A DNA stretch of 27,351 bases from a virus, in the IMG/VR virus record IMGVR_UViG_3300001683_000055, positions 1-27,351 of that record, one strand, 5' to 3'. The notes below the pieces were generated by a model. It made no database searches and was not told the DNA's origin. It saw nothing but the letters and a program-made list of their open reading frames with translations. This document shows positions 10,327 to 27,351 of the stretch, one piece after another; position 1 is the first letter of the stretch, and every line of letters begins with the position of its first letter. Made by a program: the position numbers and the translations under genes.

Positions 10327-11002
10327 ATTAGCTAAATTTGGAAATCATTGGAATATGAGTGCTCCAAAGATAGCTGATGCTATAAAACTTATTGATTGTC
10401 AAACTATAGGTTTTAAAAAATATCTAATAGAAGCTGCAGAGGCAGGTTTAGAACTGGCTATGACTGTAGACAATAAAAGAATAGAAGACCCTTTAGAACT
10501 TGCATTAGATAATATAAACGGAGATATGCATATAGCCTTAATGCCCTCAGGCTCAAAGAAAGGTTGGGGTAGAATCATTTTAGGAGCAATTTTATTTGCA
10601 ATAGCAGTTATAGCATCTGGTGGTTGGGCAGCAATAACAGCCGAAGGTGCCAGCATGTCTACGGGAATGACAATGTTAGCATCTATTGGTGTTAATTTAA
10701 TGATGGCAGGAATAACAGAATTAACTATGAAAGCTCCAAAACATAATAAAGACGAAGAAAAGGGGTTATTTAATGGACCAGAAAATACTTTAATACAAGG
10801 AACTCCTGTACCTATAGCTTATGGAAAATTACTTATAGGTGGGAAGCCTATAAGTGTTAATTTTAAACCTTCCGGTGGAATAGGTAGTACTATAACTAGT
10901 GGAGCAGTCATGACAGGATTAGCTCTAGCATACATGGCAAATGACTCTTTAATTGATTGGATCCTAGACTATGATCTTCATCATCAGGAGGATTCAGAAT
11001 AA
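10298..11002 (+). CDS. Tail tip assembly protein I (lambda gpI-like)
   Basis: The 234-residue protein starts with VYLHGELAKFG, the N-terminal signature of the gpI family, followed by a ubiquitin-like region to about residue 85. A small-residue-rich hydrophobic stretch (about 91-143) probably forms one or two membrane-seeking helices. The conserved C-terminal block has LIQGTPVPIAYGKLLIGGKPIS. It sits between K and J as in lambda. gpI is needed to build the tip complex around J, though its final place in the virion is uncertain. The chosen ATG at 10298 lies 29 nt inside the preceding gene and puts the family signature six residues from the start, as usual. It ends on TAATG with J. Confidence 0.83.
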   Translation: MQRDVYLHGELAKFGNHWNMSAPKIADAIKLIDCQTIGFKKYLIEAAEAGLELAMTVDNKRIEDPLELALDNINGDMHIALMPSGSKKGWGRIILGAILFAIAVIASGGWAAITAEGASMSTGMTMLASIGVNLMMAGITELTMKAPKHNKDEEKGLFNGPENTLIQGTPVPIAYGKLLIGGKPISVNFKPSGGIGSTITSGAVMTGLALAYMANDSLIDWILDYDLHHQEDSE

Positions 11003-14000
11003 TGTCTAATGCAGCAGAAATAGTAGCAGCAGCTATAGCAGCAGGAGTCATGGATGATCCTGCAGCGTCAGGATTAGTAGGAATGCGAGGGGGAGAGAAT
11101 CAAGTTGGTGTAGTTTATGATTTAATATCTGAAGGGCCAATAGAAGGTTTATGTGATAGTTATGCTTCTATATATTTTAATGGTACTCCAATTATAGACC
11201 CTGGTAGTGAAGCATATAAAATGGTAAAAACAAGAAAAGGTTTTGGTACTACAACAGCTGGTAGTGCAACTGTAAATACGAGCTCTGATTTTAACTTAAC
11301 AGAAATTGATCTTTCTGATGGAGCGAGATCAGCCTATATTATAGGAGCAGGAACTCATTTAACTGGAAACGGGTCTAGTACTGGAGCAACTACAATAAAA
11401 AGAAGAGGACTAGTAAGTACAAGTACTAACTTTTTTGCTAGTACTGATGCTGATAACTCTGGTAGAGGAATGGGATCTGTCTATGTTAGAATAGACGGAG
11501 CAGGCCCAGATGGACAAAACTATTTTGGAAGGGTGGTGTATTATAAATCCGCTACTGAGGCTATACTATCTCCTGCGCCTGAGACTTCTGTTACGCATGC
11601 AACTATTATAAAAGACCACTTAAGTACTATTCAATCTATAACAGACGATGATACTTTTGTAATGACGGATCCAGCGGTTACTGCTGTAACTAATCATAAG
11701 ATGATAGTAAGCCCTCCAAAATTTAATACTGGAACTAAACTAACTGATGAGGGTTTTAACTTTGAGCATGTAAGTACTTTCTTTAGAACAGGTCGTCAAC
11801 ATCAAGATGCCCCTAGAAGCTTTGCAGGACAAATAGGCACTACTTATGCCAAAGCTTTTGGTGAGGCTATTAAACAAACCACTAATTCTAATCTAAGTAT
11901 AACAGGACAAGATATTATAATAAAAACAGCACTTGCAGATATGGATATCGTAGATCCTGGTGAGATTGATGAAGTAAGAGTAGTGTTTGAGTTCCCTAGT
12001 TTAATAAAAATAAGTAAAGAGTCAGCAAATGAGTATTCTACAAGAGTTGAATTTCAAATTTGGTTTGAGTATTATCAAGGTGGTAAATGGAAAAATAAAG
12101 CAGTCCCTATTTATGGAGTAACTGATGAAGAAATAAAATCAAGAGATTATAGTGGTGAAGATACTTTAGCAGAAAAAATAGACTATGCATTTTCTACTGA
12201 TGCAGCTTATAATGGAAAGTTTAACAATGGTGTAGTATTAGCAAAAACAAAAAATAAATACTTATATGAATTCCCTATTGATGTAGAAAAGTATAAACCT
12301 TTTTCAAACTTTAGAATAAGAATTAAAAGAGTTACTGGGAATGAAGTTTTAGAACATACTAAATATCAAAGTCAACATCAGTCAAGACTTAACGCAATAT
12401 ATGCTAATGTTCATGATAGGCAAAACTATGCACATTCTGCGTATGCAGGAGTATCTTTTAAATCTTCAGAATTTAGTGCAGTTCCAGCAAGGGCATATGA
12501 AATTAAAGGAATGAAAATTCAAGTTCCTACTAATTATGTAACTAGAGATGAAGCAACTGATGGAATAGCTGCTTATACTAGAAATATAAGTTCAGGAGCA
12601 ACTGCAAGTACGTATCAAACATGGGACGGAAATTTTAGAGGAGATATAGCTAATTCTATATGGCGTAGTAATCCTCAACATGTTAATTATCAAAAAGTAT
12701 ATACTAATAATCCTGCATGGTGTTATTATGATATAATGGTAAATAATAGGTATGGATTAGGAGACTTCTTGCAAGCAGAAAATATTGATAAATATCAATT
12801 ATATGCTATAGCAAGATACTGTGATGAGTTAGTTCCTGATGGGGAAGGAGGTTCAGAACCTAGATTTACATGTAACTTATACTTAAAAGAACGGCAAGAT
12901 GCTTATAAAGTTCTTTCCGATATGGCTAGTATATTTAGAAGTATATTACATTGGATGAATAGTCAAGCAGTAGTAGTACAGGAGAGACCAAAAGAGCCTA
13001 TATATACTTTTACAAAATCTAATGTTGTTGATGGTAGTTTCCAGTATCAAAGTTCCTCTCTTCGTATGAGAACTAATCAATGTAATGTAACATGGAACGA
13101 CCCAAAAAGATTTTATAAGCAATATGTAGAAGCTGTTGATGATGTAGATAATATAATCGATACAGGTAGAGTTATACCTAAAAGTATTATAGCTATGGGA
13201 TGTACGTCTCAAGGACAGGCAAACAGGCTTGCAAGATGGACACTACTTACAGAAAAACTGGAACATGAATTAGTAAGTTTTAAAACAGGTATTAATGCTG
13301 CATTTTTAAAACCAGGAGACTTAGTATACGTTCAAGACTCAAATGATTCAGGAGTTTCAGCTAGTGGAAGGGTATCTAATACAGGTACTAGAAGTGCTAC
13401 TGTAATACCTTTAGACAGAACAATTACTTTAGAGGAAGCAAATACTTATGACTTGCATTTAATTTATCCAAAAGGTGGAGCTTATTTAAACGCAGACGGC
13501 CCCCAATATTTAGTTGATGCAAGTACTACAGCTTTTAATCGAGGAGATTTAATTACAACTGCTAAAATACCTTCTAATACTAATACTGCAGTAGCTATTG
13601 ATTCTGAAGAAAAAGCTGCTCAAGTATTAAACTGGGCAGGTACTGCATTACAAACGTATTGGACTCCCTATAGTAGAATAGAAACTCAAACAGTCTCTGC
13701 CCCTGACAATTCTGGTGGTGATGTAAATACTAGTTCTTTAACTACTGCTGCTTTTGCAGGAGGTACTCCAGATGCTGAGGTTATGTGGGCCCTTACTAAT
13801 ACATATGCAAGTAACACCGCAAAAAGTGTTAGACCATTTAGAATTGTTTCTATTAAAGAAGATGAAAAAGCAAATTTTGACATAACTGGTCAATTTTATG
13901 ATTCAACAAAATATGATTCAATAGAAAGAGGCTATGAAGTTTATCAAAGAGAACATGAACCTTTACCTCAAAAAGATCATAGAGTTCCTTATGTTGGAAA

Positions 14001-17000
14001 TGTAAGTGTTAAATTTGAGCCTTGGACTTCTGGGAGTACTGGAAGTGCTCCCGAACAATCAGTTAATTTATATAACGCTGTTTTAACTTGGTCAGCCCCT
14101 ACAAATGTGGCAGATAATAATACCTACACATATTTAAAAGGATATGACGTATTACATAATGCTACAGCTACTGGTGGAAATTCTCAAGTTATAAAAGTAA
14201 CATCTGATACTACTAGTTATACTATTGGGCCTATACAAACAGGAGAATATAGATTTGCTGTAAGAGTTGTATCAACACTTGATCAAGTAGGGCAATGGGT
14301 AGAGATCGGAGAAGCATTTAGAAATACTGAAAAAGCTGTTTCACAAACAGTTATACCAGCAACTACAGGTCTTAATCATGGAGGCTCTATAACCGCTACT
14401 ATTAGTCTAGAAAATACAGATCAAGTGACTTTGGGGTCTGCTAACTATAACGTAACTTCTCCAACAGGAAAAGTTACTACTATTACAAGCGGTACAACTA
14501 CTTATGACTTTGGTACTGCAGGGCTACAAAGTGGAGAAACAGGATACTTTCTTTGGGACGATAGTGCTACTGATTGGAAGATGGTTGAAGAATATAGTGA
14601 CACAACCGTTTTAAATGCAGCAGGATCAGCTTTTTCAGGTGGAGTAAATTATTGGAAAGAAATAGCAACGGGTTCAGCAGGTTTAACGAGAGTTACTGCA
14701 GGGAACGCGGCTTTAGCAACTGTTGCTATTACAGAAACTGTAAATAGTGAATCCTTAACTAAATATGGAAATACTATAAGTGTTGGTACTATAAAAACAA
14801 AACTTAGTAATGATTTTTCTCAAGGAGATTTTATTAAGTTAGGTACTGGAACAGCGGCTTGGTATGGTACAGTGAAATCTGTAAGTAACCCCATTTATTT
14901 TAATCCAGATATTGCTGTAAATACTACAAATAATACTATAAAGATTCCTGGTAATACATTTATTATTAATCAAGCATTATATTATCAAAGAGATGGGAAC
15001 ACTTTAATTGGTGGTTTAACAGATAATACTTTATATTATGTAGTGGATATAGGTCATGCAGATGATACCTTTAAACTTTCTGCTTCATCAGGGGGTTCTG
15101 CTATAAGTTTAACTGGAACTGGTAGTGACGCAAATCAATATTTACAGTCAGCTACAGGAACAATTACAACTACTGAACCAATATTTAAGGCTTTTGATGG
15201 TGGTGGAGCAGATGCGTACATTTACAAACTAGCCTTTGTCCCTGATAGAGAAAACGATTTCTTATACGCAAAAATAATAAATACTAGTGGTTCTTATGCT
15301 ATAACAGTACTTGGAACACAACCTGGATCACAAGGAGCCACAGGAAGTGCAGGAGGCTCTGGACTTCGTGGTGGTAGTATATTTACTTTTGAAGAAATTA
15401 CTAATGTTAATATAAGTGACGCTAATGTTACTAATTGGACAGGTACACTTAATGAAGCTAATGCTGAAGATGTTGCAGGAGCTGTAATAGCAGCGGCTTC
15501 AGATAACTATATTAGAACTAATGACAGAATTACACTTACTGATAATAGTGCAAATAAAGCAGGTACGAGAGTATTTACAGGAACTTCTACAGCAACAGAA
15601 GCAGATGTTGATCATAATGATTTCAGCTCTCTTGTAGTAGAACAGTTTGATGGAAGTGTTATTGTAGATGGTACATTACTTGCTTCTAAAATAAATACTT
15701 CTAGTATAACAATTGCTTCATTTACTAATGATAGTGGATTTACAGATGATACAGCAGCAGACGCAGCTCAGACTGATGCAGATTCAGCTCAATCAACCGC
15801 AGATGGTAAAACAACCGCATCAGCTGCAGCTACAGCAGCTAACTCAGCAACTAAAACAGGGGGTACTGTAGGGGGTTGGACACTTAATAGTACATCTCTT
15901 ACTGGTGGAAGTGGGGTACATATAAAAAGTGGTCAAACAGCTTATAATAGTGGAACAGGTTTTTATCTAGGAAATGATAGCGGTACTCCTAAATTTTCAA
16001 TAGGAAACGCAAGTACTAAAGCACTTACTTGGGACGGAAGTACTATGACTTTAAGAGGTAACTTACAATTAGTAGATGGAACCGTTCCAACAGATGATAC
16101 AACAGCAGATCTTAAAACAACCGCCGCAGCCGCAGCTTCAGCAGCTAACTCACAGGAGAAAACTGGGGGTAAAGTTGGAGGTTTATCACTTGCTTCTGAT
16201 AAAATGTATATTGGAACAGGAACAATAAATAATGCTAATACAGCTTTCTATGTAGATAATACTGGTAAGATGTCTTTAAAAGATAAACTGTATTGGGATG
16301 GTACTACTCTAGCTATAAATGGACAAATAACATCAACATCAGGTACGATAGGTGGATTTACTATGGGCTCTAATGTTTTATATGCAGGAGCTGATGGAAC
16401 TAGGGTTTCTTTATCAACAGCAGACGGTATTCATTTAGGACATAATACATTTGGAAGTGCTCCCTTTAGGGTAACTAGAGCGGGGGCTTTAACAGCAGAA
16501 AGTGTAACTATTACTGGTGGCTCAATTGGAAATAGTGTAACAGTAGGTGGAACAACAGCAACTAATGTAGCAACTTATGCTGGATATGCAAATACGATAA
16601 ACGGATACTACTCTGGTGGTATACTAGACTCTGTCAGAGGGGGAACTGGACTCAATAATTTCTCTGATTCAAGTTATAAAAATAGTTCAATTACTTATGC
16701 TGATATATTAACAGCAAATCCATCTAGTACAGTTGTTTGGACTACAGCTGATGGAGCAAGTTATTCGCCTACTGGACTAACACAAGATATAATTGTAACT
16801 TATGATGGTGGAACAACAACTGCTGCTTGTACTGTAAGATGGACTTATGTAAATGTAACTGATAGTAATGCTGATTATTTAACTAGTGTTGCATTTCAAG
16901 GTTCGTCAACAGGTTTCGCACTTGGAAGCCCTTCTGTAACTTTACAAAGTGGAGTTAAATATGCAACTGTTGTAGTAACCCATAGTGCAAGTTCAGAAAC

Positions 17001-17052
17001 AATAACATTAGGAGCTTTAATATCACAATTAGTAACAGGAGGAGGAAAATAA
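11002..17052 (+). CDS. Central tail tip / host-specificity protein J (lambda gpJ-like)
   Basis: A 2016-residue protein with the gpJ hallmark VGVVYDLISEGPIEGL at about residues 35-50. The J core continues through AYEIKGMKIQVPTNY (about 499-513) and the region NPAWCYYDIMVNNRYGLG (about 570-587) to about residue 900. A fibronectin type III-like domain covers about 1000-1100 (AVLTWSAPTN, TGEYRFAVRVVST). The distal part (about 1110-2016) is beta-rich and low in charge, with a short collagen-like stretch GSQGATGSAGGSGLRGGS (about 1440-1457). Three related blocks follow, starting GGWTL, GGLSL and GGFTM near nt 15871, 16174 and 16348. The N-terminal part should form the trimeric tip hub and the C-terminal part a central fibre contacting the receptor. 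Lambda gpJ has 1132 residues, so the extension is large. It begins on TAATG and abuts the next gene with no gap. Confidence 0.92.
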   Translation: MSNAAEIVAAAIAAGVMDDPAASGLVGMRGGENQVGVVYDLISEGPIEGLCDSYASIYFNGTPIIDPGSEAYKMVKTRKGFGTTTAGSATVNTSSDFNLTEIDLSDGARSAYIIGAGTHLTGNGSSTGATTIKRRGLVSTSTNFFASTDADNSGRGMGSVYVRIDGAGPDGQNYFGRVVYYKSATEAILSPAPETSVTHATIIKDHLSTIQSITDDDTFVMTDPAVTAVTNHKMIVSPPKFNTGTKLTDEGFNFEHVSTFFRTGRQHQDAPRSFAGQIGTTYAKAFGEAIKQTTNSNLSITGQDIIIKTALADMDIVDPGEIDEVRVVFEFPSLIKISKESANEYSTRVEFQIWFEYYQGGKWKNKAVPIYGVTDEEIKSRDYSGEDTLAEKIDYAFSTDAAYNGKFNNGVVLAKTKNKYLYEFPIDVEKYKPFSNFRIRIKRVTGNEVLEHTKYQSQHQSRLNAIYANVHDRQNYAHSAYAGVSFKSSEFSAVPARAYEIKGMKIQVPTNYVTRDEATDGIAAYTRNISSGATASTYQTWDGNFRGDIANSIWRSNPQHVNYQKVYTNNPAWCYYDIMVNNRYGLGDFLQAENIDKYQLYAIARYCDELVPDGEGGSEPRFTCNLYLKERQDAYKVLSDMASIFRSILHWMNSQAVVVQERPKEPIYTFTKSNVVDGSFQYQSSSLRMRTNQCNVTWNDPKRFYKQYVEAVDDVDNIIDTGRVIPKSIIAMGCTSQGQANRLARWTLLTEKLEHELVSFKTGINAAFLKPGDLVYVQDSNDSGVSASGRVSNTGTRSATVIPLDRTITLEEANTYDLHLIYPKGGAYLNADGPQYLVDASTTAFNRGDLITTAKIPSNTNTAVAIDSEEKAAQVLNWAGTALQTYWTPYSRIETQTVSAPDNSGGDVNTSSLTTAAFAGGTPDAEVMWALTNTYASNTAKSVRPFRIVSIKEDEKANFDITGQFYDSTKYDSIERGYEVYQREHEPLPQKDHRVPYVGNVSVKFEPWTSGSTGSAPEQSVNLYNAVLTWSAPTNVADNNTYTYLKGYDVLHNATATGGNSQVIKVTSDTTSYTIGPIQTGEYRFAVRVVSTLDQVGQWVEIGEAFRNTEKAVSQTVIPATTGLNHGGSITATISLENTDQVTLGSANYNVTSPTGKVTTITSGTTTYDFGTAGLQSGETGYFLWDDSATDWKMVEEYSDTTVLNAAGSAFSGGVNYWKEIATGSAGLTRVTAGNAALATVAITETVNSESLTKYGNTISVGTIKTKLSNDFSQGDFIKLGTGTAAWYGTVKSVSNPIYFNPDIAVNTTNNTIKIPGNTFIINQALYYQRDGNTLIGGLTDNTLYYVVDIGHADDTFKLSASSGGSAISLTGTGSDANQYLQSATGTITTTEPIFKAFDGGGADAYIYKLAFVPDRENDFLYAKIINTSGSYAITVLGTQPGSQGATGSAGGSGLRGGSIFTFEEITNVNISDANVTNWTGTLNEANAEDVAGAVIAAASDNYIRTNDRITLTDNSANKAGTRVFTGTSTATEADVDHNDFSSLVVEQFDGSVIVDGTLLASKINTSSITIASFTNDSGFTDDTAADAAQTDADSAQSTADGKTTASAAATAANSATKTGGTVGGWTLNSTSLTGGSGVHIKSGQTAYNSGTGFYLGNDSGTPKFSIGNASTKALTWDGSTMTLRGNLQLVDGTVPTDDTTADLKTTAAAAASAANSQEKTGGKVGGLSLASDKMYIGTGTINNANTAFYVDNTGKMSLKDKLYWDGTTLAINGQITSTSGTIGGFTMGSNVLYAGADGTRVSLSTADGIHLGHNTFGSAPFRVTRAGALTAESVTITGGSIGNSVTVGGTTATNVATYAGYANTINGYYSGGILDSVRGGTGLNNFSDSSYKNSSITYADILTANPSSTVVWTTADGASYSPTGLTQDIIVTYDGGTTTAACTVRWTYVNVTDSNADYLTSVAFQGSSTGFALGSPSVTLQSGVKYATVVVTHSASSETITLGALISQLVTGGGK

Positions 17053-17643
17053 ATGGCAATAATAACAGCAAGTAATGGGTTTAAAATAAGACCTATTGTA
17101 GAAAGTGATGTAACTTTTGTAACAGAATCTTTAAAAGATTTCCCTTTAGGACAAATGTCTTATAGTAAAAGAATAGATGAATTTTCTAATTTTATATATT
17201 GTAGCGAAGGTTTTACTGATGCTAAAGTTGCTAATGGAGATACTGTAGCTGTTACCATGATACTAGAAAAAGCAGATGGTACTGAAGTAGGTTTAAGACA
17301 TTACGTTATCGATAATAAAGTTGCAGAAGTAAGAATGGGTATAATTCACCCAAGTCATAGAGGAAATAAGTATGAAACAGCACAAGGTATGTTAGGGGCT
17401 TATTGGGCTTTTACCCATTTAAGTTGTACTTCAGGCTTTTTTGAACCAGTTGATAATACACAAATCAATGAAGCTATGACTACAGCAAGTAACTATTATA
17501 CTACTGTTTCAAATAATAGAGATTCAAACGCATACGCAGGACCAATAGTTAGTTTAAATAAAGTAACTGTTACTCCTGCACAGTACGAAACACATAGAGC
17601 AGCCCATTCTACATGGAGTTCTATAACTTATACTGTCTCTTAA
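17053..17643 (+). CDS. GNAT-like protein of the tail locus
   Basis: A 196-residue protein with an N-terminal strand-helix GFKIRPIVESDVTFVTESL and a central AEVRMGIIHPSHRGNKYETAQ (about residues 91-111), the order seen in GNAT acyltransferases. The usual R-G-x-G-x-G/A acyl-CoA phosphate loop reads R-G-N-K-Y-E, with the second and third glycines replaced. Activity is therefore doubtful; it could be a structural relative. Residues 150-196 fall outside the usual fold. It starts directly at the stop of J with GGAGG at 17041-17045 (7 nt spacing), so it is translated with the tail operon and is its last gene before a hairpin. Possible roles are modification of a fibre or tip protein, or of a host surface component. 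Fold call is moderate; function is unknown. Confidence 0.6.
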   Translation: MAIITASNGFKIRPIVESDVTFVTESLKDFPLGQMSYSKRIDEFSNFIYCSEGFTDAKVANGDTVAVTMILEKADGTEVGLRHYVIDNKVAEVRMGIIHPSHRGNKYETAQGMLGAYWAFTHLSCTSGFFEPVDNTQINEAMTTASNYYTTVSNNRDSNAYAGPIVSLNKVTVTPAQYETHRAAHSTWSSITYTVS

Positions 17644-20910: not shown

Positions 20911-23511
20911 ATGGCATATATAGGTAAAAGACCACAGGATACTTTCCCGTCCAATAATTCAGTAACGGCAACTATCATAGCAGCAAATGCTGTAGGTAGT
21001 TCAGAAATTGCTGGAAACGCAGTAGGCACTGGAGAGATTGCAGCTAACTCAGTAACAGCAGCTAAGATACCTGATAATACTATAACTGCAACTCATATAC
21101 CTAATGATTTAATAGACTCAGATCATTTAGCAGCAGGTGGAATTGACACAGAACATTTATCCGCTGATGCAGTCACAGCAGCAAAATTAGCTGATGCTGC
21201 AGTCGTTACAGCTAATATAGTAGATTTAAATGTAACTACTGGTAAAATTGCTAATAATGCAATAACTGCGGCTAAACTGCCCGATAATGTTATAACAGCT
21301 ACTCATATTCCAAATGGTTTAATAGTAACTGCACATATAGCAGACAATGCAGTCACAGCAGCTAAGATACCTGATAATGTATTAACAGCAACTATGTTGC
21401 CAGATAATGTTATTTTAGCAACTCACATACCTAATGCAACTAACTTAACTTTAGGAACAGTTACTGCTGCTTTAACAGGTAATGTTACAGGTAATGTATC
21501 TGGTACAGCGGCAACAGTAACAACTGCTGCTCAAACTAATATCACGAGTCTTGGAACACTAACAGCTTTAACAGTTGATGATGTAGCCATAAATGGTAAA
21601 GTTGTAACTATGACTGGTTCAACTAGTGATACAGCAGTAATTACAGCAGGAACCAACGGAACACTTAGTATAGTAACAACAGATGCTGCTGCAGCAGCGG
21701 CTAATATTCAAATTACAGCAGATGGTACAGCAGAATTAGCAGGTACAACAGTTACTTTGGATTCTGCGGGTGGAATAACACTTGACGCTGATGGTGGAAC
21801 AGTTACTTTTGCTGATGGAGGTTTGTCTTTAGGTACGATTACTTCTTCAGGGTGGACAGGAGCAGTAGTAGGTAATGTAACAGGTAATACATCTGGTACA
21901 GCCGCTACAGTAACAGGTGGAACTCAAGCATCAATTACAAGCGCTGCTAATCTAGTAACTGTTGGTACAATAGGTACTGGTGTATGGCAAGGCACCGCAG
22001 TAGCAACAGCTTATATAGCAAATAATGCTATTACAGCAGCTAAGCTACCTGATAATGTAATTACAGCAACGCATATACCGAATGACTTAATAGATTCAGA
22101 TCACTATGCCGCTGGTTCAATAGATAATGAACATTTAGCTGATGATGCTGTAGATAGTGCTGAAATAGCCGCTGGAGCAATAGACTTAGCTCATATGTCA
22201 GTTAATTCAATTGATTCAGATCAATATGTAGATGGATCAATAGACCTAGCTCATATGTCAGTTAATTCAATTGATTCAGATCAATATGTAGATGGATCAA
22301 TAGATACAGCACACATAGCTGATGATCAAGTAACGGCAGCTAAACTAGCCAATACTGCAGTAACCGCTGCATCATATGGTTCAAGTTCAGCCATTCCAGT
22401 AATAACAGTTGATGCTCAAGGACGAATAACAGGCGCAAGTACAGCTTCAACAAGTTCTACACTCACAATAGCGGCGGATAGTGGAGCAAATGATACAGTT
22501 ACAGTCGGTAGTGATACACTAACTTTCGCAGGTACATCAAACGAAGTAAACACAACAGTTTCAAATAATCAAATTCAAATTGGCTTACCTGACAACGTAA
22601 CAATAGGTGGAAATTTAATAGTTACAGGTGACTATACAGTAAACGGTACTACAAGTACTAATTCTGTTACAAACATGGTTATCGCTGATAACTTAATAGA
22701 ATTAAATAACGGTGCTGGCTCAAATGCTAACGATAGTGGTATCGTTATAGAAAGAGGAAGTACTGGAGATAACGCAATTATAGCATGGGACGAAAGTGCA
22801 GATAAGTTTGTAGTAGGAACAACAACAGCTACAGGAGCAAGTACTGGTAATTTAACTATTACTACAGGAACACTAGTAGCAAATGTTGAGGGTAACGTTA
22901 CAGGTAATGTTACAGGAAACACTTCAGGTACAGCAGCTACAGTAACAACAGCAGCACAATCTAACATAACAAGTTTAGGCACATTAACAGCCTTAACAGT
23001 TGATAATCTTGGTGTTAATGGTAATACTATAACAGCAAACTCAGGTGCTTTAAATCTAACACCTGCTGCAGGATCAGCCATAGTTTTAGACGGAACAATA
23101 AATGTAGATGCAGGAGTAGTTACAGGAGCAACAAGTGTTACTTCAACTGCCTTTGTAGGAGCATTGACAGGTAATGTTACAGGAAACACTTCAGGTACAG
23201 CAGCTACAGTAACAACTGCAGCTCAATCGAATATAACAAGTCTTGGAACTCTTACAGCCTTAACAGTAGATAATCTTGGTATTAATGGTAATACTATTAC
23301 AGCAAACTCTGGTGCTTTAAATCTTACACCTGCAGCAGGTTCTGCTATCGTTTTAGATGGAACAATCAATGTAGATGCAGGAGTAGTAACTGGTGCAACT
23401 AGTATTACTTCTACGGCGTTTGTTGGTGGATTAACAGGTAATGTTACAGGTAATGCAAGTGGTACAGCTTTGACTGTAACACAAGCAGCACAAAGCCTTA
23501 ACAGTAGATGA
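20911..23511 (+). CDS. Giant repeat tail fibre, N-terminal part (frame broken)
   Basis: 866 residues starting MAYIGKRPQDTFPSN, a recurrent phage fibre N-terminus. Residues about 15-185 and 365-480 are runs of roughly 15- to 20-residue repeats of the type NAITAAKLPDNVITATHIPN and IDSDHLAAGGIDTEHL, suggesting a repetitive trimeric shaft. Between and after them lie beta-rich modules such as GTLTALTVDD, GTNGTLSIVTTDAAAAAANI and GALNLTPAAGSAIVLDG. The frame ends abnormally at TGA 23509-23511 with TQAAQSLNSR. Here the third copy of an 89-residue module breaks off, and the next frame continues with ALTVDDVAVDGKII. This is probably the first part of a single protein of about 1486 residues, disrupted by a net loss of about 29 nt. 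It could also be a natural truncated form or an assembly error in repeats. Confidence 0.75.
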   Translation: MAYIGKRPQDTFPSNNSVTATIIAANAVGSSEIAGNAVGTGEIAANSVTAAKIPDNTITATHIPNDLIDSDHLAAGGIDTEHLSADAVTAAKLADAAVVTANIVDLNVTTGKIANNAITAAKLPDNVITATHIPNGLIVTAHIADNAVTAAKIPDNVLTATMLPDNVILATHIPNATNLTLGTVTAALTGNVTGNVSGTAATVTTAAQTNITSLGTLTALTVDDVAINGKVVTMTGSTSDTAVITAGTNGTLSIVTTDAAAAAANIQITADGTAELAGTTVTLDSAGGITLDADGGTVTFADGGLSLGTITSSGWTGAVVGNVTGNTSGTAATVTGGTQASITSAANLVTVGTIGTGVWQGTAVATAYIANNAITAAKLPDNVITATHIPNDLIDSDHYAAGSIDNEHLADDAVDSAEIAAGAIDLAHMSVNSIDSDQYVDGSIDLAHMSVNSIDSDQYVDGSIDTAHIADDQVTAAKLANTAVTAASYGSSSAIPVITVDAQGRITGASTASTSSTLTIAADSGANDTVTVGSDTLTFAGTSNEVNTTVSNNQIQIGLPDNVTIGGNLIVTGDYTVNGTTSTNSVTNMVIADNLIELNNGAGSNANDSGIVIERGSTGDNAIIAWDESADKFVVGTTTATGASTGNLTITTGTLVANVEGNVTGNVTGNTSGTAATVTTAAQSNITSLGTLTALTVDNLGVNGNTITANSGALNLTPAAGSAIVLDGTINVDAGVVTGATSVTSTAFVGALTGNVTGNTSGTAATVTTAAQSNITSLGTLTALTVDNLGINGNTITANSGALNLTPAAGSAIVLDGTINVDAGVVTGATSITSTAFVGGLTGNVTGNASGTALTVTQAAQSLNSR
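22187..22304 (+). repeat. 60-nt tandem repeat in the giant fibre gene
   Basis: Positions 22187-22244 and 22247-22304 are identical over 58 nt, giving a period of 60 nt (20 codons, unit IDLAHMSVNSIDSDQYVDGS). Left of the identity a single mismatch at 22186/22246 is followed by five more matches. Near-perfect identity down to third positions implies a recent in-frame duplication. Confidence 0.95.
22903..23493 (+). repeat. 267-nt module repeated two and a fraction times
   Basis: The unit beginning GGTAATGTTACAGG starts at 22903, 23170 and 23437, a constant spacing of 267 nt (89 codons). It encodes GNVTGNTSGTAATVTTAAQ through DAGVVTGATS and TAFVG. The first two copies are complete and nearly identical in protein, with synonymous differences. 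The third stops at about 23493, where the reading frame breaks. Confidence 0.88.
23480..23511 (+). other. Frame break in the giant fibre gene (missing about 29 nt)
   Basis: Compared with the homologous stretch near 23216-23260, the sequence jumps from GCACAA (ending 23493) to AGCCTTAACAGTAGATGATG (from 23494), lacking about 29 nt. Adding 29 nt puts both halves in one frame. The downstream frame reads ALTVDDVAVDGKIITM from 23495 and has its last upstream stop at 23477-23479, so both frames are open only across 23480-23508. Confidence 0.85.
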
Positions 23512-23539
23512 TGTTGCTGTAGATGGTAAAATAATTACT

Positions 23540-25342
23540 ATGACAGGTTCTGCTAGTGATACAGCCGTATTGACAGCAGGAACTAATGGAACACTTAGTA
23601 TAGTAACTACAGACGCTGCAGCAGCAGCAGCTAATATTCAAATAACTGCCGATGGTACAGTAGACATTGATTCAGCAGGAGTACTAACTTTAGATTCTGG
23701 AGCAGCTATTAATATAGAACCTGCTACAGGTTCAGCTATTTTATTAGATGGCACGATTAGTATAGATGCAGGAGTAGTTACAGGTGCAACTAGTATAACT
23801 TCAACAGCTTTTGTTGGTGGATTAACAGGTAATGTAACAGGAAATGCTTCAGGAACAGCAGCAACTGTAACAGGAGGAACACAAGCCTCTATTACAAGTA
23901 CAGCTAACTTAGTTACTGTAGGCACAATCGGAACTGGAGTATGGCAAGGAACAGCAATAGCTTCTGGGTATATAGCAGCAGATGCTATTACAGGAGCTAA
24001 GATAGCAGATGACGCTATCAACAGTGAACATTACGCAGCAGCTTCCATCGATAATGAGCATTTGGCAGATGATGCTGTTGGAGCAGACGAACTTGCGGCA
24101 AACGCTGTAGTTACAGCCTCTATAGTTGCTGGAAGTGTGACCGTAACAGAATTAGCCGATAATTCCGTCACTTCAGCCAAAATTGTTAATGGTACGATAG
24201 TGACAGCAGATATTGCGAATAATGCAATTTTAACTCAACATATAGACGACAATCAAATTACAGGTGACCAAATAGCCGACAACCTTGTACTCAGCGGTAC
24301 AGGGGCAATTAGAATGCCAGATGGAACGACTGCGCAAAGACCTTCAGCAGCTGCTGGAATGTTTAGATATAATACTACAACTTCCAAGTTCGAGGGTTAT
24401 ACTGACAGTTGGGGCGATATCGGTGGGGGTGGTTCAAACACTTTCACAAGAGATGCTTTTACTGGCGATGGTTTAGATGTCACTTTTACACTATCTCAAT
24501 CGGGAATAAGTGAAAACAATTTATTAGTATTTATCGAAGGTGTTTTCCAAGATCAAGATGCTTATAGCGTAAGTGGTACAACACTTACATTTGGTACTGC
24601 TCCAGTAAATGGACGTGGTATTATAGCGTATAGTGTAGCTTCAGCAGTAAGCGGATCTAATTTAAATCAAACTAGCGCCTCAGGAGATGGTCTCGAAACT
24701 CAGTTTACAATGGGGACTTCTCCAGTAAGCGAAAATAACACTCAAGTATTTATTGATGGTGTATATCAACATAAAAATACATATAGTACATCAGGTACAA
24801 CATTAACATTCTCAGCGGCACCACCAAATGGAACGGCTATTGAGATAATGATATTCACACAAACTGATGTGAATGTACCAACAGATGATACGATTGATAC
24901 AGCTCATTTAAAAGCTAGTGCAATAACTACTGCTAAAATAGCAGACAACGCAGTCACAGCAGCTAAGATACCAGATAACGTTTTAACAGCAACTATGTTA
25001 CCTGATAATGTTATATTAGCTACTCATATACCGAATGCAACTAATTTAACTTTAGGGACAGTTACAGCTAATTTAACAGGAAACGTAACTGGTAATACAA
25101 GTGGTACAGCTTTGACTGTAACACAAGCGGCACAAACAGCAATTACAAGTGTAGGTACTCTTACAGGATTAACAGTAGCTGGTGAAGTCTCAATGACTAC
25201 ACTAGATATAGGTGGAACAAATGTCACATCAACAGCAGCAGAATTAAATTACGTTGATGGAGTTACATCAGCAGTACAAACACAAATGGACACAAAAGCG
25301 TCCACAGGAAAGGCGATAGCAATGGCTATGGTTTTCGGATAA
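23540..25342 (+). CDS. Giant repeat tail fibre, C-terminal part (frame broken)
   Basis: This frame gives 600 residues from ATG 23540, but matching fibre sequence (ALTVDDVAVDGKIIT) continues upstream to 23495 and no ribosome binding site precedes the ATG. It is therefore probably the downstream part of the fibre begun at 20911. It repeats GTNGTLSIVTTDAAAAAANI, GNVTGNASGTAATVT and DNVLTATMLPDNVILATHIP units of the first part. Residues about 309-440 are two copies of a 73-residue domain (VFIEGVFQDQDAYSVSGTTL and VFIDGVYQHKNTYSTSGTTL), probable receptor-facing beta domains. The end has STAAELNYVDGVTSAVQTQM followed by GKAIAMAMVFG, a closing motif shared with the mini-fibre at 20346. Without a shift or re-initiation this part would be absent from the virion. 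Confidence 0.75.
   Translation: MTGSASDTAVLTAGTNGTLSIVTTDAAAAAANIQITADGTVDIDSAGVLTLDSGAAINIEPATGSAILLDGTISIDAGVVTGATSITSTAFVGGLTGNVTGNASGTAATVTGGTQASITSTANLVTVGTIGTGVWQGTAIASGYIAADAITGAKIADDAINSEHYAAASIDNEHLADDAVGADELAANAVVTASIVAGSVTVTELADNSVTSAKIVNGTIVTADIANNAILTQHIDDNQITGDQIADNLVLSGTGAIRMPDGTTAQRPSAAAGMFRYNTTTSKFEGYTDSWGDIGGGGSNTFTRDAFTGDGLDVTFTLSQSGISENNLLVFIEGVFQDQDAYSVSGTTLTFGTAPVNGRGIIAYSVASAVSGSNLNQTSASGDGLETQFTMGTSPVSENNTQVFIDGVYQHKNTYSTSGTTLTFSAAPPNGTAIEIMIFTQTDVNVPTDDTIDTAHLKASAITTAKIADNAVTAAKIPDNVLTATMLPDNVILATHIPNATNLTLGTVTANLTGNVTGNTSGTALTVTQAAQTAITSVGTLTGLTVAGEVSMTTLDIGGTNVTSTAAELNYVDGVTSAVQTQMDTKASTGKAIAMAMVFG
24464..24861 (+). repeat. Two diverged 73-residue domains in tandem in the giant fibre
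   Basis: GDGLDVTFTLSQSGISENN begins at 24464 and GDGLETQFTMGTSPVSENN at 24683, 219 nt apart. Both copies continue with VFI-x-GV-x-Q, Y, SGTTLTF and PxNG. They have diverged at many residues, so the duplication is old compared with the 60-nt repeat. Confidence 0.85.
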
Positions 25343-25364
25343 AAGAAAAAAGGAGAAATAGAAA

Positions 25365-25763
25365 ATGGCAAATCCAAACATAGTCTCAGTCACAAGTATA
25401 AAAGCAGGAAATGCAGGTTGGAATTTATCTAGCACGCTGACAGCTACATTATTGACAGTAGACGCAGACAAAATACTAAAAATAAATAGCATTATATGTA
25501 GTAATGTAGATGGAACAAATTCAGCAACATTAAACTTATATGTTGATGGTATGGGTTCAGGTGCTTCAGGAGTTACAACTACAGGTGCAGATGCTACTAT
25601 TTATATAGCTAAAACAATATCTGTACCAGCAGATGCAACATTAGTAGTAATAGATAAGAATTCATCAATATATCTTATGGAAGGTGATATACTTAAAGGT
25701 GGAGCAAGTGCAGCAAGTGACTTAGATTTGTTTGTATCTTATGAAATAATAGATGATGCATAA
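25365..25763 (+). CDS. Small beta-rich virion protein, paralogue of the 20566 gene
   Basis: A 132-residue protein starting MANPNIVSVTSIKAGNAGWN. The body (LTVDADKILKINSIICSNVD, TIYIAKTISVPADATLVVID, SIYLMEGDILKGGASAASDL, FVSYEII) follows the strand order of the 111-residue protein at 20566, with a loop insertion GMGSGASGVTTTGAD. It is probably a sandwich-fold decoration or fibre-linking protein. AAGGAG lies before the ATG in a 22-nt gap after the giant fibre. The two paralogues bracket the fibre gene, which suggests they act at its two ends or on different fibres. Confidence 0.6.
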   Translation: MANPNIVSVTSIKAGNAGWNLSSTLTATLLTVDADKILKINSIICSNVDGTNSATLNLYVDGMGSGASGVTTTGADATIYIAKTISVPADATLVVIDKNSSIYLMEGDILKGGASAASDLDLFVSYEIIDDA

Positions 25764-25777
25764 GGGGGTATTTAATT

Positions 25778-26215
25778 ATGGCACACTTTGCAGAACTTAA
25801 TTCAAGCAACGAAGTATTACGAGTAATCGTAGTATCTAATACAGATGTAGATGCCAACGGTGGAGATTTACACGCAGGTGCAGAAACTTTTGTTACAACT
25901 ATTGTTCCTTATGGAACAGGTGGAGTAGCTTGGAAGCAATGTTCTTATAATAATAATTTTAGAAAACAATATGCAGGCAAGGGATATACTTACGATTCAT
26001 CAAAAAATAAATTCATAGCTCCAAAACCTTACGCATCATGGTCTTTAGATTCTGATGATGATTGGCAAGCACCTGTAACTTATCCTAATGTTATAGAAAT
26101 AAGTAGCCTCCCTGTCCTAATTTCATGGGATGAAGATAATCAAAAATGGTTAGGTAAAACTGAATCAACCGATTACGAGTGGGATGCTAGTGGATTAGCT
26201 TGGAATGAGGTATAA
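25778..26215 (+). CDS. Conserved small fibre-associated protein (MAHFAELN family)
   Basis: A 145-residue protein with the start MAHFAELNSSNEVLRVIVVSN, then WKQCSYNNNFRKQYAGKGYTYD (residues about 66-87), KPYASWSLD and a tryptophan-rich end (ISWDEDNQKWLGK, YEWDASGLAWNEV). I recall this family as widespread in marine phages next to fibre genes, always without known activity. Conserved aromatic residues and the FRKQYAGKGYTYD core suggest a compact fold, possibly an assembly chaperone or fibre-tip protein. GGGGGT precedes the ATG. Family recognition is fairly firm; function is not known. Confidence 0.68.
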   Translation: MAHFAELNSSNEVLRVIVVSNTDVDANGGDLHAGAETFVTTIVPYGTGGVAWKQCSYNNNFRKQYAGKGYTYDSSKNKFIAPKPYASWSLDSDDDWQAPVTYPNVIEISSLPVLISWDEDNQKWLGKTESTDYEWDASGLAWNEV

Positions 26216-26217
26216 AT

Positions 26218-27156
26218 ATGGCTGATTCTAATGGTGGAATAGTAGGTGCATATAATGTGCCAGAAACTGGACAAGCTGAAATCGTAACAACATTCAATTC
26301 AAGTGGTACCCTTACAACAGCTTCTGAAACAACCTCACTTGAATATTTAGTTATTGCTGGTGGTGCTTCTGGTGGCGGTGAAATAGCTGGTGGAGGAGGG
26401 GCTGGTGGTTATAGGGCAGCTAGTGATTTCTCTGTTTCAGCATCAACAAGTTATTCAATTACTGTAGGTGCTGGTGGTGCCGCAGTAGCAGGTAGTGCAA
26501 ATCCTGATGCTGGTAATAATGGTAGTGATTCTGTATTTTCTTCTATAACCTCTCTTGGAGGGGGTGGTGGCGGAGGCCCCAGTACTGAATCATTAAAGTC
26601 AGGACGAGTTGGGGGTTCTGGTGGTGGAGAATGGATCGGAGGAGGCTCAGGTGGTGCTGCAGGAACTTCAGGTCAAGGCAACGCTGGCGGTACAGGTTCT
26701 GGAGATACTTATGGTAATGGTGCAGGTGGCGGCGGAAAAGGTGCTGTTGGCGTTAATGGTGGTAACACAACTAATAGTGCTTCAGAAGGTGCAGGAGGCG
26801 CTGGACTAGCATCATCAATTTCAGGTTCATCAGTTACAAGAGCTGGTGGAGGTGGAGGTGGTACTTGGAACTCGGCTGGAAATTATACTGGAGGCAGTGG
26901 TGGCTCTGGCGGCGGCGGACAAGGCTGGGGTAATACAGCAGACGGATATACAACTAATGCACAAGGTTATGGTATAGCAGGAACTGCCAACACTGGTGGC
27001 GGTGGTGGTGGTGGAGGTAATGGCGGCGGCGGTGGTGGTGGCACAGGCGGGTCTGGTGTTGTTATTATTAAACAACCCAAAACTTTAAATAACACTTCTG
27101 GTATATGGAGTATGAACGCTGTTTATGATGCTGTAGTAGCAAACAGCTGGACTTAA
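26218..27156 (+). CDS. Glycine-rich adhesin-like protein, copy 1
   Basis: A 312-residue protein. Residues 1-42 form a start domain (MADSNGGIVGAYNVP, TGQAEIVTTFNSSGTL) followed by YLVIAGGASGGG. Residues about 48-280 are dominated by glycine in runs of up to eight, broken by short S/T/N segments, with GGGGAGGYRAASDF near the front and GTGGSGVVIIKQP at the end of the block. The last 25 residues (SGIWSMNAVYDAVVANSWT) form a small terminal motif. Runs of this kind can pack as polyglycine type II helices, as in the gp38 adhesins of T-even phages such as S16, where the loops between runs bind receptors. The adhesin role is inferred. A ribosome binding site GAGG lies at the end of the previous gene. 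A second copy starts 14 nt after this one ends. Confidence 0.72.
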   Translation: MADSNGGIVGAYNVPETGQAEIVTTFNSSGTLTTASETTSLEYLVIAGGASGGGEIAGGGGAGGYRAASDFSVSASTSYSITVGAGGAAVAGSANPDAGNNGSDSVFSSITSLGGGGGGGPSTESLKSGRVGGSGGGEWIGGGSGGAAGTSGQGNAGGTGSGDTYGNGAGGGGKGAVGVNGGNTTNSASEGAGGAGLASSISGSSVTRAGGGGGGTWNSAGNYTGGSGGSGGGGQGWGNTADGYTTNAQGYGIAGTANTGGGGGGGGNGGGGGGGTGGSGVVIIKQPKTLNNTSGIWSMNAVYDAVVANSWT

Positions 27157-27169
27157 TAAGGAAAATAAT

Positions 27170-27351
27170 ATGGCTAATTTTAATGGTGGAATAATAGGCA
27201 AAGGTAATGTACCAAAGGATACTGGACAAGCTGAAATCGTAACAACATTTAATTCAAGTGGTACTCTTTCAACAGCCTCACAAACAACCTCACTTGAATA
27301 TTTAGTTATTGCAGGTGGTGCAGGTGGTGGTGGAACAGTTGGTGGTGGTGG
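27170..27351 (+). CDS. Glycine-rich adhesin-like protein, copy 2 (cut by window end)
   Basis: From ATG 27170 the visible 60 residues follow copy 1 almost position by position: NGGI-x-G, NVP, TGQAEIVTTFNSSGTL, TTSLEYLVIAGGA, then glycine runs. There is one extra residue (KD for E) before TGQAEI. AAGG (27158-27161) precedes the start in the 13-nt gap. The gene continues past 27351. It is a tandem duplicate, probably with different receptor loops in the unseen part. Confidence 0.8.
   Translation, partial: MANFNGGIIGKGNVPKDTGQAEIVTTFNSSGTLSTASQTTSLEYLVIAGGAGGGGTVGGG

Follow-up and report, generated by a model that had tools for sequence, protein, structure and literature searches.

Introduction

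How does a long tail-fibre gene come to end inside one of its own repeat modules, with the fibre sequence running on in the next reading frame? We asked this of the record IMGVR_UViG_3300001683_000055, a linear IMG/VR virus contig of 27,351 bases whose entire length is called the window here. The window encodes a siphovirus-like tail module, with a major tail protein, a tape measure and minor tail and tail assembly proteins, and fibre and glycine-rich genes follow 3' of a J-like central fibre (Table 1). Cultured phages yielded no close match to the window by DNA, nor by the protein encoded at 89-1699. The 3' piece of the broken fibre showed partial protein similarity to 63 phage records, and since these include cyanophages and Pelagibacter phages an aquatic host is likely. 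PHROG tail-fibre families matched the fibre pieces. In Pfam the 5' piece fell into no family and the 3' piece matched DUF4183 only, and a search of solved structures returned a single weak match, of the 3' piece to the tail adaptor 7y22 (E 0.0021). The fibre is probably trimeric.

Two further repeats were seen in this part of the window. The second glycine-rich gene starts at 27170, repeats the start of the gene at 26218 and is cut by the window end; 26218-27156 and 27170-27351 share a 134-nt direct repeat (86%). Inside the fibre, 22173-22304 holds a 60-nt tandem repeat (2.2 copies, 97%), an in-frame unit that could alter fibre length.

Table 1. Positions of the fibre pieces, the joint between them and the exchanged blocks, numbered along the window
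Feature	Position	Strand	Remarks
J-like central fibre	11002-17052		tail module of the window
5' fibre piece, frame 1	20911-23511	+	866 aa; ends with TGA at 23509-23511
Second short near-identical patch	23223-23322	+	98/100 identical to IMGVR_UViG_3300037808_000035
Final in-frame module stretch 5' of the joint	23431-23494	+	TGNVTGNASGTALTVTQAAQ
3' fibre piece, frame 2	23480-25342	+	first ATG at 23540, 600 aa from there
Joint	23494/23495	+	relatives are 29 nt longer here; net frame change +1
Recent exchange tract	23498-23813	+	314/316 identical to IMGVR_UViG_3300037808_000035

Results

The fibre gene is split between two frames and is 29 nt shorter than in its relatives

The 5' piece begins with MAYIGKRPQDTFP, an N-terminus like that seen in relatives with intact fibres. 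A TAA at 23477-23479 closes frame 2 upstream, and from 23480 this frame is open; the fibre is taken up again in it at 23495 with ALTVDDVAVDGK, and no ATG, GTG or TTG occurs in it between 23480 and 23540. The 3' piece bears the DUF4183-like stretch and the distal fibre end, and its 600 codons are open without decay. A preliminary description of the locus had noted that the first frame stops at 23511 and that the fibre continues in the next frame from 23495 ahead of any ATG, and both can be read directly from the letters. Its estimate of about 1486 residues for the rejoined protein is also consistent, as 4432 nt plus 29 nt make 1487 codons including the stop.

We compared the locus with related contigs, as the same description had recommended. 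In the nearest relative as judged by a neighbouring gene (L009, 81%), the fibre is one ORF of 1550 aa, and the DNA alignment of the two contains exactly one gap, of 29 nt, at the joint. A gap of the same 29 nt appeared against IMGVR_UViG_3300037808_000035, the contig of loci L031, L119 and L189. The supposed absence of about 29 nt from one fibre gene thus proved exact, and the relatives carry intact single fibre ORFs with 29 nt more at this point. The fibre is a single ORF also in L011, L014 and L017, and in L010 and L013 it stays open as far as the contig reaches; L018 and L012 each have two adjacent fibre genes. The two genes of L018 overlap (11782-14430 and 14415-17090, about 880 and 890 aa) and differ at their N-termini (MAYIGKK... 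versus MALTKV...). The loss had further been called repeat-associated, which holds only loosely: the fibre arrays have periods of 30, 60 and 267 nt, and the loss lies inside a module and does not amount to a repeat unit.

The arrangement at the joint was found nowhere else. The 34-nt word on its left (23461-23494) recurs exactly in five contigs and a 33-nt word on its right in two, and all seven carry the full in-frame segment beside the word. Among 86 distinct SGTA..VT module contexts, taken from 175 loci and the window's own modules, the frame is left at the window joint only; the other contexts flagged as irregular were an ITT variant in L060, a differently worded module in L107 and one in L127 truncated where its contig ends. 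These 175 loci correspond to about 167 distinct contigs (a count by eye), in which we found no further break within a module. A scan for frame changes within continuous fibre homology, covering 176 locus-strands with fibre hits and 263 ORFs of at least 200 aa, returned the window and three further candidates (L029, L052 and L053) that read as ordinary gene boundaries. A degenerate joint pattern that matches the window gave no hit in viral_contigs, a set from which the window's own or very near records were possibly excluded. Because the window junction alone leaves the frame among the 86 module contexts, the frame break is not a chance feature.

Two observations were made alongside these counts. 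The contig of L188 (IMGVR 3300025168_015838, positions 1-71) ends 38 nt past the module word that follows the window joint, as if its assembly had halted inside the repeat. The C-terminus GKAIAM..FG, considered as a general fibre trait, matched by pattern only 6 of the 198 long ORFs that include a stop codon, and the idea was dropped.

A near-identical tract begins at the break

Comparison with IMGVR_UViG_3300037808_000035 revealed a feature that the preliminary description had missed. Left of the joint the two fibres agree at 53 of 71 positions (23424-23494, 75%), then follows the tract listed in Table 1, which differs solely at 23617 and 23665, each a third codon position of frame 2, and to its right the agreement falls to 65 of 83 (23817-23899, 78%). 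The fibre end and the next genes (25172-26478) are 71% identical. Measured against the mean divergence outside, a slightly wider span of 319 nt with 4 mismatches has a binomial P of 8e-17. The tract is thus near-identical throughout, ends abruptly on both sides and is set in diverged sequence. As this block and the short patch at 23223-23322 are both near-identical to the related contig, we read the window fibre as a recent mosaic. The left edge of the tract and the break coincide within 3 nt. This edge is 29 nt short of register with the related contig, and the right edge is in register. By a rough reckoning, a random 29-nt loss near the tract would meet its edge roughly once in 15 cases.

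These features suggest the following course of events. The ancestral state would have been a modular tail-fibre gene in a single frame, carried by a siphovirus-like phage, and the block now lying at 23498-23813 would have been swapped with the fibre gene of a related phage via homeologous recombination. At the left joint the partners would have been out of register, costing 29 nt of the conserved in-module segment ITSxGTLT and moving the frame by +1. The predicted product is an 866-aa fibre from which the distal 600 residues are missing; no evident start signal was seen for the distal part, which is probably left untranslated. Fibre loss may be tolerated here, as it is for the disposable side fibres of lambda. 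We regard it as probable, if well short of certain, that an off-register homeologous joint deleted a portion of a conserved segment within the module and changed the reading frame. We infer that the event took place in a virus, not in a library or an assembly, and likewise infer the direction of the exchange; the fibre would then be lost from the virion or shortened in it, and the virus would tolerate the loss.

Several lines of evidence argue for such a swap: the jump in identity at the joint and the fall past the tract, the near absence of frame loss at other tract edges (see below), and a second ORF with neither a Shine-Dalgarno motif nor a fibre-type N-terminus. Other facts weigh against it. 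The joint occurs in one contig only and is known from assembly alone, its coincidence with the tract edge could be chance, it has hardly any microhomology in known relatives, and other exchange edges are in register. The undecayed 3' piece fits a very recent event, but it fits an artefact equally well. The comparisons support a broken single fibre gene that is 29 nt shorter than in relatives. Of the origins considered in the preliminary description, a fixed truncation comes close to the reading that we prefer; what has to be added is the cause, an off-register joint at a tract edge.

Tract edges in related fibre genes mostly keep the frame

We surveyed the edges of near-identity tracts beside flanks of at most 85% identity in 126 non-redundant fibre regions (of 176). 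Of 93 edges, 88 keep the frame, four mark the boundary of a gene (L041, L091, L145/L170 and L023), and the remaining one is the window joint. One of 89 within-gene edges is therefore out of frame, and this fraction is a lower bound on misjoining because the edges are not independent and failures are hidden by selection. For the same lack of independence (52 pairs, 52 regions), P-values are rough. An earlier count made on ORFs only (92 edges, three off frame) was biased to in-frame edges and is superseded.

The edges tend to lie near the repeated TGNVTGN/SGTA linker. Within 36 nt of TGNVTGN we counted 16 of 85 edges versus 4.5 expected from the same alignments, and within 36 nt of SGTA 14 versus 4.2, with no enrichment at GTLT (4 versus 3.7); all three linker motifs had been picked after the sequence had been seen. 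A second expectation model gave like numbers. In the window the right tract edge falls at a TGNVTGN/SGTA linker and the left edge 40 nt past SGTA, narrowly outside the 36-nt limit. For the window, the clustering at the linker was noted at 23434 and 23825. Near the repeated TGNVTGN...SGTA linker of these aquatic-phage fibres, tract edges are three to four times as frequent as would be expected. One may speculate that the linker is a recombination seam along which phages trade fibre modules with one another, and that out-of-register joints at the seam or close to it give a population an inherent way to switch long fibres off and, through another exchange, back on, but we rate this idea as rather unlikely.

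Other possible origins of the joint

The joint could be technical, in the form of a chimeric read, a chimera from library preparation or amplification, or a faulty join of strains in assembly, and the fibre of the real virus would then be intact. We take this to be a possibility worth keeping in mind but a doubtful one. In keeping with it, neither the joint nor any other mid-module break was found in the other contigs searched, and all of the downstream sequence is still open. The fibre is moreover full of diverged repeats and a near-identical donor tract exists, which is described as the setting where inter-strain chimeras form (PMC11443906). A collapse of repeats, however, would drop 30, 60 or 267 nt and not 29. 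For an assembler to collapse a repeat, a shared word longer than the graph k (21 or more) is needed. Graph assemblers change path only within shared words, and words across this junction are barely shared: if 5 nt or more must lie on both sides, they recur up to a length of 10 nt (181 loci and the rest of the window), and if 3 nt or more must, none longer than about 12 nt was found elsewhere. Values of 10 nt or less were likewise reached by 39 of 343 control cuts in the fibre, so the joint is not unique in this respect. Since the shared junction-spanning words reach only 10 nt, a molecule or read with the joint probably existed, possibly a chimeric one. The repeat-collapse error put forward in the preliminary description is accordingly unlikely in that exact form, and we rejected the collapse of a repeat unit.

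An ordinary replication error could have deleted the 29 nt independently of the exchange tract that starts there. This would explain the clean gap against L009, a contig not involved in the exchange. It would leave the proximity of break and tract edge to coincidence, and in relatives the ends of the lost segment have about 1 nt in common. We consider such a deletion improbable.

That the fibre is genuinely built from two genes, the 600-aa part being a separate protein that assembles on the first, we hold to be very unlikely. Two-protein fibres are described for the T5-like phage DT57C (PMC4728585), and the paired fibre genes of L018 and L012 likewise count in its favour; translation could start at ATG 23540, where ribosomes might re-initiate having terminated at the stop 29 nt upstream. 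This ATG, however, has no Shine-Dalgarno motif from our own word list, its duplex energy (-3.4 kcal/mol) does not stand out from those of 98 internal ATGs, and the ORF begins mid-module, whereas second fibres of relatives start with MALTKV.... For the gene at 25365 an AAGGAG box was found. The start-signal test alone is weak, since the fibre's own start at 20911 likewise has no listed Shine-Dalgarno motif (-5.6 kcal/mol). Neither a start signal of its own nor an attachment-type N-terminus of the LtfA/LtfB kind was found in the second ORF, and nothing similar to such an arrangement turned up in the 86 module contexts or the frame-change scan; an independent second gene was rejected on these grounds.

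A programmed +1 frameshift or an on/off (phase) switch at the joint is hardly credible: the frames overlap at 23480-23508, so that a +1 slip there would rejoin them, but no relative has the arrangement or a conserved overlap with a slippery site, no known slippery site was seen by eye, the RNA fold at the joint is ordinary (z -1.35), and a slip product would still be minus the conserved ITSxGTLT segment. Phase variation by slippage would change the length by a repeat unit or within a simple tract, and the joint has no unit-length repeat or homopolymer. Inverted pairs are imperfect (70-94%) and dispersed in repeat-rich sequence, none bracketing the joint convincingly, and an invertible switch was rejected. 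The on/off or length switch among the early suggestions is thus not positively supported: there is no slippable tract, unit-length repeat or convincing invertible segment for it to act on, and no other contig was found with the same joint.

Discussion

A broken fibre gene, be it natural or artefactual, is a known kind of feature. Only its link to a recombination edge and the linker seam that may exist would perhaps surprise a specialist. If the joint is real, the receptor-binding fibre of an uncultured phage was knocked out by its own diversifying process, and recently so, because the tract is near-identical to IMGVR_UViG_3300037808_000035. If it is an artefact, it marks where metagenomic fibre genes fail. 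For annotation, adjacent fibre ORFs of which the second has no start may be one broken gene.

The closest precedent is the stf gene of lambda PaPa, also a siphophage fibre gene that became two ORFs after an out-of-frame change. The lambda split is described as orf401/orf314 (PMC2762979), and stf is reported to be frameshifted in laboratory lambda, with Stf absent from the virion (PMC10721106). Loss of the lambda side fibres was selected in a biofilm-like setting, where stf was changed in 19 of 21 mutants, 15 of them by frameshift (PMC2762979). As with stf, relatives of the window fibre have an intact single ORF and an out-of-frame indel splits one homologous protein. The two differ in that the change here is 29 nt at the edge of a recombination tract and not a small indel in a homonucleotide run, and the Pfam search turned up no family shared by the two.

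Recombination within repeat-bearing fibre loci has been described for the LtfA-LtfB genes of the T5-like phages DT57C and DT571/2, where exchange between repeats results in compromised fibres (PMC4728585). The deletions recorded there keep the register and turn two genes into a single one, whereas in the window one gene is split. Rad52-like phage recombinases carry out relaxed recombination and mosaic exchange of diverged genes, as tested with the lambda side-fibre region, and the authors remark that phage genomes are usually without repeats and hence tolerate it (PMC3945230). No recombinase was among the genes identified in the window, which is a partial record. In contrast to that remark, the window fibre is full of diverged repeats, and a misregistered joint is therefore possible.
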